Assembly: GCA_015661155.1 (NCBI GenBank)
Contig: JACVQK010000022.1
Span: 5,935 to 51,035, forward strand
Source: Dehalococcoidia bacterium
Lineage (GTDB): Bacteria > Chloroflexota > Dehalococcoidia > Lucifugimonadales > UBA2985
Direction of reading: 5' to 3'
Length of the DNA stretch: 45,101 nucleotides
Part shown: in pieces, positions 28,541 through 31,113 of the stretch
Position numbering within the stretch: position 1 is the stretch's first letter
Layout: every line of letters starts with the position of its first letter
Notes under the pieces: generated by a model
The model's input: only the letters and a program-made list of their open reading frames with translations
Databases searched by the model: none
What the model was told of the DNA's origin: nothing
Position numbers and translations under genes: made by a program

Positions 28541-28905
28541 GCGGTTGATAGGCAGGCCTGTAAGCCGAGTTCTGTATCCCGACATAGTCGGGACGGCGAC
28601 CATCTATCTGGGACTCCGATTGCTCGAAGCCTCTAGCGGCCAACCCGGGGACGGGACGGGCTCTCCCTTTGTCCCCCTATTTGGCCTTGCTCCGGGTGGG
28701 GTTTACCCTGCCTCCGATGTCACCACCGGAGCGGTGAGCTCTTACCTCACCATTTCACCCTTACCCCGATAAATCGGGGCGGTGTAATTTCTGTGGCACT
28801 TTCCGTCGGGTTACCCCGCCTGGCCGTTAGCCAGCACCCTGCCCAGTGGAGCTCGGACTTTCCTCCCCCGCGCAAGCGGAAGCGACCGCCCAGCCTGCCT
28901 ATCAA
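28541..28905 (-). ncRNA. rnpB: RNase P RNA (bacterial type A)
   Basis: Catalytic RNA that removes tRNA 5' leaders. On the minus strand the 5' end reads GATAGGCAGGCTGGGCGG and pairs with the 3' end CAGGCCTGCCTATC (helix P1). The universally conserved GAGGAAAGTCCGAGCTCC and the 3' AGAACTCGGCTTACAG (split here) are both visible, as are GGGTAACCCG and ACAGAAATTACACC. Length of about 365 nt is normal for type A. A weak CCTAA/TTAGG hairpin at 28501-28517 follows on the minus strand. Confidence 0.95.
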
Positions 28906-28952
28906 CACAAACCCAGTGTAACATCAGCGGCGGCGAGGGTCAAAGGGAGCAG

Positions 28953-30149
28953 CTACTCCTTCTCTTTCAGGGTCAGGAGCACAGAGTCATCCCCCACCGA
29001 GACGTGGGAGACCAGGGCACGGAGAAGGTAGCCCAGGGTGTCCCTATCCAGCGAGTCCCAGCCCTGTAGAAGGAATTCACCTCCGCGAGCCATGGCCTCT
29101 AACCCAGGGTCAGGGGACAACAGGCTGTCCTCAAGAGCAGACCTGTGGGCACCCAACTCCTCAAAGATGAGGCGCAGGCGTCCCACGGAGATGCTGCCGG
29201 CAGCGGTCGCCTCCACGGCTTTCAGGAACCGACGCTCCAGAAGTTTTACCTTCCCCTCGGCGTCAGAGCGGCGCTGAGAGGCAGCCTCATCCAGGCGAAG
29301 CTCTATCCTTCCCTGCTCCAGGGCCTCCCAGGCCTGATCCAGGACAGCTCGCTCCAGGACTTCAGAGCGCCAGGTATGGTAGCGGCACATACCCTGGTTG
29401 GTCCGAGACTGGCACTGGTAGTAGCGATACTGGCCGACCACCCGGGAGCCGTCCTTGTGGCTCCATCCCTGGCGTCGGCTCACCCCTATCATCCTGTTGC
29501 CGCAGGAGGAGCAGAAGGCCAGGCCTGATAGGAGAAACGACTCCCCAGGATGAGGTGTTCGCGGCGTTCTCCTCTGGGTCATCTTCTTCTGAGCCAGGTT
29601 GAACTCCGCGGAGTCGATGATGGCCTGGTGGCTACGGGGAACCCTCATGCCAAAACGGGCGTACGTACCAAGATAGGCACGGTTGCGAAGAACGTCTCTA
29701 ACCGTGACTATGCTCCATCCCCCCCCGCTTCGAGTGGGGACCTCTCGCTCATTCAGGTGGCGCACTATGAGCCTCATGCCCATGTCATCTTGAGTGTACA
29801 GGTTGAATATCCGTTGCACCGTGGCGGTCTCTTCGGATACCACCTCCAGTTTGCCATCCGGGCCAATCCTGTATCCAAAGGGGGGTTTGCCCAATCCCTC
29901 TCCCCGCATGGCCCTGGATAGCATGGCCTTCTTGATCCGCTCCCCTTTGGCTCCGCTCCCACTACCCCAGCGCTTCAGAGCTTGCAGCAAGGGATCAGGC
30001 ATCTCCTCATCGAAACAGAGGACCCTGGCTCCCAGGGCGTCCAGCTCCAGGATTCGGCCCACGGAGGACTCCAGGGTATGCCCCAGATGCTGGGGGCCTG
30101 CGACAGCGACCAGAAACTCCCTCTGCGATTGCCCCAGGTACTCCACCAT
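28953..30149 (-). CDS. Large-serine-recombinase homologue lacking the catalytic N-terminus
   Basis: 398 residues related to large serine recombinases. Recognised parts: the end of a resolvase-like domain (QREFLVAVAGPQHLGHTLE and ILELDALGARVLCFDEEMPDP), the recombinase domain (about 85-175, GKPPFGYRIGPDGKLEV through WSIVTVRDVLRNRAYLG), a zinc ribbon (CSSCGNRM ... CQSRTNQGMC) and a C-terminal coiled coil. The usual first ~40 residues with the nucleophilic Ser (YxRVS) are absent. The DRLxR arginine motif is replaced by PQHLGH. In-frame codons upstream of ATG 30149 still look like resolvase (SFSRFCKRYSHQPVATFEE) back to a TAA within the end of the next gene. It should not cut DNA; the intact rest suggests a retained DNA-binding role. 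Confidence 0.85.
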   Translation of the reverse strand: MVEYLGQSQREFLVAVAGPQHLGHTLESSVGRILELDALGARVLCFDEEMPDPLLQALKRWGSGSGAKGERIKKAMLSRAMRGEGLGKPPFGYRIGPDGKLEVVSEETATVQRIFNLYTQDDMGMRLIVRHLNEREVPTRSGGGWSIVTVRDVLRNRAYLGTYARFGMRVPRSHQAIIDSAEFNLAQKKMTQRRTPRTPHPGESFLLSGLAFCSSCGNRMIGVSRRQGWSHKDGSRVVGQYRYYQCQSRTNQGMCRYHTWRSEVLERAVLDQAWEALEQGRIELRLDEAASQRRSDAEGKVKLLERRFLKAVEATAAGSISVGRLRLIFEELGAHRSALEDSLLSPDPGLEAMARGGEFLLQGWDSLDRDTLGYLLRALVSHVSVGDDSVLLTLKEKE

Positions 30150-30255
30150 TAGCTGGTACTGGCGGCGTCCGTCCTCCTCGGGGATGTGCTCCTCAAAGGT
30201 CGCGACTGGCTGGTGACTATACCGCTTGCAGAAGCGGGAGAAGGACTCTGGGTGC

Positions 30256-30957
30256 TCAGCTTATGTACAGTATTCGACTGCAACTGGGGCACTGCACCGG
30301 CGTTGGCGAGGTGCGGGCCATCTGCACCACCCTGGTGGGCAGAGTGATGCGGCAACCCTGGCATATGCCTCTTTCCACTTTGACCACCGCCAGACCCAGG
30401 CGGGCGGAACGAAGGGTGTTGTAGAGACCCAGAGGCCCCGGGCTCACAAGGGAAGAGAGACGCTGCCGCCGCTCCTCCAGCAGGGCCAGATCACCGCGCA
30501 GACGCTCTCTCTCCACCAGCAGGCGGTCATGCTCCCTCCTCCACGTGGTCTCAACCTCCTTGAGGGTGTTCTCCAGATTGCCCAGGCTCTCCTGTGTCCC
30601 TTCGATGGCCTCCAGGAGTTGCAGCAGCTCCCCCTCTTGCTCCCTTTGCTGCCCTCTGAGGATGTTCAGCTCCGCTTGCAGGTTCTCCAGCTCCTTGGGA
30701 TTGCGCACCCTTCCCCCGTAGAGCTTCTCTTGCACCAAGGCCGCCTTGCCCTGAGAGGACTCCACGGTGAGCTCCAGGTCTCTGCGCTCCACTTCCTGTC
30801 TCTTCAGAGTCAAGCGAGCCTCTTCCACCATCTGCTGAGACTGAAGAAGGAGGCGGTTGTCCATGAGAGCGGACTCGACGGAGGCGACGGCCTGCTTACA
30901 CCGCTCTATGCCTTCGTCGACTTCCAGAAGGTCGTATAGCTGCTGAACAACGGTCAT
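30256..30957 (-). CDS. Coiled-coil protein with C-terminal C4 zinc ribbon (DUF164/zf-RING_7 type)
   Basis: 233 residues. Residues 1-180 are an almost continuous heptad-rich coiled coil forming a hairpin, with the conserved turn YGGRVRNPKELENLQAE typical of this family. The C-terminus is a zinc ribbon, CQGCRITLP and VQCPSCSRIL. Family members are proposed to bind nucleic acid or to act as adaptors, but no function is established. Start ATG 30957 is the natural N-terminus; a longer frame to 31038 is not supported. Its stop overlaps the beginning of the degenerate recombinase frame, so the two may be co-transcribed. Confidence 0.88.
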   Translation of the reverse strand: MTVVQQLYDLLEVDEGIERCKQAVASVESALMDNRLLLQSQQMVEEARLTLKRQEVERRDLELTVESSQGKAALVQEKLYGGRVRNPKELENLQAELNILRGQQREQEGELLQLLEAIEGTQESLGNLENTLKEVETTWRREHDRLLVERERLRGDLALLEERRQRLSSLVSPGPLGLYNTLRSARLGLAVVKVERGICQGCRITLPTRVVQMARTSPTPVQCPSCSRILYIS

Positions 30958-31113
30958 GGTAAGCCACGCATCTCCGCCATTGTATGGAGAGGGACATGAC
31001 CTTGTCAACAAGACCGCTTCCAGGGTTCCGTGCCTCACGGTGGATGTGATGCTCCACCATTTGCCCTATAGGATGGTGAGGTCTCCGAGGCACGCCGTGA
31101 GCCGCCGAGCAGC

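Follow-up and report, generated by a model that had tools for sequence, protein, structure and literature searches.

Serine recombinases are known for moving or inverting DNA enzymatically. The window (the whole stretch of 45,101 nucleotides of Dehalococcoidia DNA that was analysed) carries, beside the gene for RNase P RNA, a reading frame for a large serine recombinase (LSR) whose catalytic residues are gone, and the locus thus raises the question of whether this is a mobile-element gene in decay or a protein kept for a purpose other than recombination. It is fairly probable, in our judgement, that the frame, here termed dLSR for dead LSR, belongs to a domesticated family of LSR pseudoenzymes that lost recombination early and has been kept in single copy as a DNA-binding protein, mostly in an operon with a zinc-ribbon gene (ZR), rnpB and, in some cases, rnhA. 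Domestication of the family is well supported by comparative sequence evidence, and from the same kind of evidence we infer the DNA-binding role.

The reading frame in the window

The features of the locus are collected in Table 1. The window frame matches the Pfam Recombinase domain (PF07508, E=3.6e-18) and the recombinase zinc ribbon (PF13408, Zn_ribbon_recom, E=3.2e-14), and AlphaFold predicts recombinase domain, ribbon and coiled coil of the 398-residue product to be all intact, the coiled coil and ribbon with high confidence. These parts are hence as complete as the original prediction, which was made from the sequence alone, had claimed. Its description of the N-terminal part also agrees with sequence and alignment: the YxRVS strand with the nucleophilic Ser is absent, MVEYLGQSQREFLVAVAGPQHLGHTLE occupies the region from beta3 to DRLxR, and PQHLGH stands at the DRLxR site itself. 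Moreover, the frame is open upstream of the first ATG at 30149, as stated there, and continues to 30260, which gives 435 codons without a stop; the TAA that closes it (30263-30261) lies within ZR.

Table 1. Features of the dLSR locus, in window coordinates
Feature	Position	Strand	Basis
ZR, usual upstream partner: CdsZ/CT398-like coiled coil and C4 zinc ribbon	30256..31038	minus	Pfam, synteny
In-frame open stretch 5' of the first ATG	30150..30260	minus	Homology to the family N-terminal domain
Junction where about 68 bp of relatives is missing	30249..30256	minus	Comparison with relatives
dLSR ORF	28953..30149	minus	398 aa from first ATG; ORF listing, Pfam, family membership
PQHLGH in place of catalytic DRLGR	30078..30095	minus	Sequence and alignment
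Recombinase domain PF07508, DNA-binding	29571..29834	minus	Pfam
Recombinase zinc beta ribbon PF13408	29334..29534	minus	Pfam
Near-invariant YRYYQC DNA-contact strand in zinc ribbon	~29429-29412	minus	Alignment; equivalence to LI integrase beta12 from PMC3783163
Coiled-coil arm, two helices	29118..29294	minus	AlphaFold, residues 286-344
Sigma-70-like rnpB promoter (TTGACC, 17 bp, TACACT)	28915..28943	minus	Consensus match only
rnpB, RNase P RNA class A, directly 3' of dLSR	28545..28901	minus	Rfam

The stretch upstream of the first ATG contains no ATG, GTG or TTG, and the first possible standard start in the window is that ATG, codon 38 of the open frame, which has no obvious ribosome-binding site. 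In the nearest relatives (L034/L005, 64-65% identity to the window copy), the gene begins with an ATG (MKAIGYF...) six bases past the ZR stop. Compared with L034, about 68 bp are gone from the window right after the ZR stop, taking with them the start codon and some 20 codons, and the first strand and helix of the resolvase-like domain are missing. This deletion is seen in the window copy only; its relatives are full length and start with MRAIGYF. The truncation, which the original prediction took as a mark of domestication, is instead a private deletion, and judging from the alignment the missing N-terminal strand is separate from the loss of catalytic residues across the family. The window sequence may reflect a real and recent deletion, a start that is not recognised as such, or an error in the assembly. 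A programmed +1 frameshift from ZR into the dLSR frame was also considered, and no slippery context was seen.

A catalytically dead family under selection

Of 60 relatives searched, about two thirds carry a single high-scoring orthologue (~26-65% identity). Genome contigs yielded ten orthologue loci from named MAGs of Chloroflexota and Dehalococcoidia, in part the same genomes. A family profile built from 36 orthologues matches 130 of 245 Dehalococcoidia genomes, with one family copy in each and a few borderline cases. Nearly all family members score above ~230 bits and ordinary LSRs below 200, the lowest in-class matches including an ordinary LSR (G072) as well as divergent members (G252/L114); since a few of these low matches are doubtful, carriers are put at about half of the class. 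About half of the Dehalococcoidia genomes have no dLSR, and thus the gene is not generally essential. Outside this class, no match in the survey of 301 Chloroflexota genomes exceeded 175 bits, which is the range of ordinary LSRs. Similarly, the collections of viral contigs, phages and plasmids that were searched contain no family member, and matches there reach only 20-30% identity, as for any LSR. A single copy at a recurrent chromosomal locus, absent from these collections, is not the profile of a mobile-element integrase.

The active site was compared with that of 24 active LSRs of the same phylum, using the numbering of gamma-delta resolvase, whose sequence serves as numbering only. An active version at the locus was the finding that the original prediction had named as telling against it; none of the 78 family members keeps all five of R8, S10, R45, R68 and R71, as opposed to 24/24 controls. 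Twenty members retain none of these residues, 46 retain one, 11 two and a single member three. Arg8 persists in 43/78 and Ser10 in 5/78 (24/24 in the controls), while R68 is found in one member, R71 in two and both together in none. The MRAIGYF strand is a relic of YxRVS in which Tyr6 is retained, and the DRLxR segment reads HLGxDLE or similar in relatives. Traces of the ancestral site are visible in a few members (YVRAS in L065, VDRLG in L126 and LDQLG in L054). In addition, long low-complexity insertions in the N-terminal domain of the members L018:1189-2682 and L020/L053 may be a further sign that this domain is no longer enzymatic.

A tree built from 40 family members together with 17 active LSRs places the family in a single clade (SH-aLRT 99) whose sister group is a set of active LSRs from the same class (L113/L160/L161). 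Unlike dLSR, these retain YxRVS and DRFGR and are found in only a few of the genomes examined. Neutral substitution rates were the other outcome that would have spoken against domestication. The dN/dS ratio w is well below 1 in all pairs tested, at 0.13-0.31 for the whole gene and 0.09-0.42 for the dead N-terminal domain (upper 95% limits <1), and ZR has similar values; the dead domain itself is thus under purifying selection. In most pairs, constraint is strongest on the recombinase domain and zinc ribbon (w 0.08 for window vs L034), with the proviso that NG86 estimates are rough where dS >1, as in this last pair (dS 1.34). Loss of catalytic residues, purifying selection and monophyly are thus found together, as in a domesticated pseudoenzyme.

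What has been conserved is the LSR architecture. PF07508 and PF13408 are present in 78/78 members, and the Pfam Resolvase domain is recognised in only 37/78. The AlphaFold model of the L034 protein (mean pLDDT 92.9, 78-sequence alignment) contains all LSR elements including the resolvase core, its best Foldseek matches are serine integrases, and the family profile aligns nearly end to end with the SPbeta integrase. Full-length TM-scores are low, which we attribute to hinged domains, and hence the fold claim rests on E-values and domain matches. The structural comparison proposed at the outset therefore yields a complete LSR fold from which the active-site residues are gone. With serine integrases (LI A118 integrase, SPbeta YokA, phiC31, Bxb1), dLSR shares the resolvase fold, the long helix E, the recombinase domain, the four-Cys zinc ribbon and the coiled-coil insertion, as seen in profile and Foldseek matches, whereas it differs in having no nucleophilic Ser or active-site Arg, in being chromosomal and single-copy, and in having no linkage to mobile elements. 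The zinc-ligand cysteines and the YRYY strand are each kept in 72-78 of the 78 members; the residues of LI integrase equivalent to the latter, Tyr295 and Tyr297 in beta12, contact attP (PMC3783163). About four aligned members are without some of the zinc cysteines.

The operon with ZR, rnhA and rnpB

The neighbourhood was surveyed at 99 distinct family loci, with rnpB detected via its conserved 5' core. The next gene upstream in 80/98 loci is ZR, in the same orientation, with the dLSR start typically 3-4 nt past the ZR stop, and rnpB lies within 2 kb downstream in 60/94; Rfam confirmed rnpB in 14/20 loci tested. The original prediction had suggested that the gene is kept beside both rnpB and the zinc-ribbon gene, and this is right, with ZR as the tighter partner. 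Orthologues with the same truncation and neighbourhood had also been proposed as a check; the neighbourhood is indeed recurrent, but the truncation is not, as relatives are full length. In the window, a putative rnpB promoter occupies part of the short interval that separates dLSR from rnpB. Divergent members (L087-L095, L102, L106, L107) have no recognisable ZR upstream, and several of them lie directly upstream of rnpB.

The gene rnhA is directly downstream of dLSR in 28 of the surveyed loci, and several families keep the order ZR-dLSR-rnhA-rnpB. Where a genome has no dLSR, the order is ZR-rnhA-rnpB (in other Chloroflexota classes and in the f54 genomes sampled) or ZR-rnpB. ZR-rnhA-rnpB is also the order at the rnpB loci without dLSR from other Chloroflexota lineages (L127, L128, L133, L139). 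This distribution suggests that ZR-rnhA-rnpB is an ancient RNA-metabolism operon. When the ZR tree is rooted on other classes, the gene-less lineages f53 and f54 fall outside the carriers and the other gene-less genomes inside, a topology that fits one gain and several losses of dLSR, with weak deeper forks. Given these gene-less orders and the ZR tree, dLSR most likely joined an existing operon, entering it between ZR and rnhA, and rnhA most likely left later in the gene order of the window. Replacement of rnhA by dLSR can be ruled out, since both stand together in several families and a different RNase HI is encoded at another place in the genome of the window. This RNase HI (G000:C37:25619-25981) lies away from the operon, and an operon-type rnhA is missing beside rnpB.

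ZR shares a coiled coil and a C4 ribbon with CdsZ/CT398/HP0958 proteins and scores below the NCBIfam equivalog cut-off for them (46.7 vs 275 bits). A structure paper on this type of protein (PMC5947703) describes ZR homologues as binders of proteins or nucleic acids. A PADLOC match of ZR to JetC (E=0.007) is weak and was set aside as coiled-coil similarity.

What the protein may do

Together, these observations suggest a protein that now probably works only by holding DNA. A dimer would clamp DNA through the recombinase domain and zinc ribbon, each monomer holding ~25 bp as in LI integrase, and the dead resolvase domain would serve as a dimerisation or structural module. The coiled coil may serve as an arm that contacts partners, the co-translated ZR protein most likely among them, and dLSR would then act as a sequence-specific regulator or an architectural DNA-binding protein. 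In the window copy, the private deletion would have taken the normal start and left a DNA-binding part that is intact and folds in prediction. More tentatively, with a probability that we put a little short of even, dLSR may be a class-wide regulator or chromosome-architecture protein derived from a serine integrase, inserted early into the ZR-rnhA-rnpB operon and clamping ~50 bp together with ZR. The original prediction of domestication as a DNA-binding protein is thus upheld for domestication by orthology, neighbourhood and dN/dS; DNA binding fits the conservation, and no operator was found. Crude k-mer footprinting upstream of ZR recovered only promoter -10 boxes and tRNA genes, alignment of the regions upstream of rnpB is confined to the promoter and the start of the RNA, and the searches returned no binding site, regulon or partner interaction for dLSR. 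The pseudoenzyme could also act mainly by protein contacts.

Several other explanations deserve consideration. An ordinary prophage or transposon integrase in decay is practically untenable: the window copy has no start, as such a gene might, but class-wide single-copy orthologues, a recurrent locus and w far below 1 refute ordinary decay for the family, in line with the original prediction. It is rather unlikely, yet deserves more weight, that the family is domesticated and the window copy is a fresh pseudogene, no longer made after the ~68-bp deletion. The missing start codon and first strand, the first ATG at codon 38 with no evident SD, and a protein branch roughly double the length of the L034 branch would all fit. 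However, 431 codons remain without stop or frameshift, all 61 remaining highly conserved columns are intact, and constraint on the recombinase domain and ribbon is strong in the comparison with L034. Moreover, ZR also evolves faster in the window (37:22 vs 52:26), and because this acceleration matches that of dLSR, it is a lineage effect; relaxation specific to dLSR is unsupported. That the enzyme is still catalytic with a migrated active site is highly improbable. The frequent Arg8 and a near-invariant C30 might hint at it, but only M1, Y6 and C30 reach at least 90% conservation in the N-terminal domain, which makes a new active site there unlikely, and no conserved polar cluster in this domain substitutes for S10, R68 and R71.

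The remaining alternatives concern partners and targets. Instead of regulating at DNA sites, dLSR might be mainly a protein or RNA scaffold that works with ZR and acts on RNase P RNA, RNase HI or R-loops, which we regard as improbable. The tight linkage to ZR, the common ZR-dLSR-rnhA-rnpB order and the binding properties of ZR homologues speak for such a role, but the LSR DNA-binding surface is the most conserved part of the protein, and dLSR often persists at loci that have lost their link to rnpB and rnhA. In addition, ZR-rnhA-rnpB exists without dLSR, and therefore the linkage may be inherited context. A role in immunity, in which the dead recombinase occupies attachment sites as a decoy and so blocks related active LSRs, is very unlikely. 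The active sister LSRs L160, L161 and L113 do occur in genomes that also carry a dead copy, but a close active LSR from this sister group is absent from most carriers among the 60 relatives, a conserved att-like site was not found, and broad single-copy conservation would be unusual for an arms-race factor.

A domesticated DNA-binding protein, the reading that we prefer, has a parallel in TldR proteins, which are nuclease-dead. These TnpB-derived, RNA-guided transcription factors likewise arose from a mobile-element enzyme that became a nucleic-acid-binding regulator; the likeness is one of analogy only, as TldR belongs to another protein family, is RNA-guided and has a demonstrated function (PMC13418256). 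Besides structural papers on LSRs, the literature search turned up a review on the exaptation of mobile elements, in which serine recombinases are treated for their part in inversion and excision (PMC8987985). In the open-licence literature searched, we found no account of an LSR family that is conserved and yet catalytically dead, which is weak evidence of novelty because the search was limited to such papers. If the DNA-binding role is true, dLSR would be an integrase that was domesticated long ago into the core genome biology of bacteria, and the family would provide naturally non-cleaving, DNA-binding LSRs with which site recognition by LSRs can be studied. Annotation is affected as well, since dLSR genes are probably labelled simply as recombinases.
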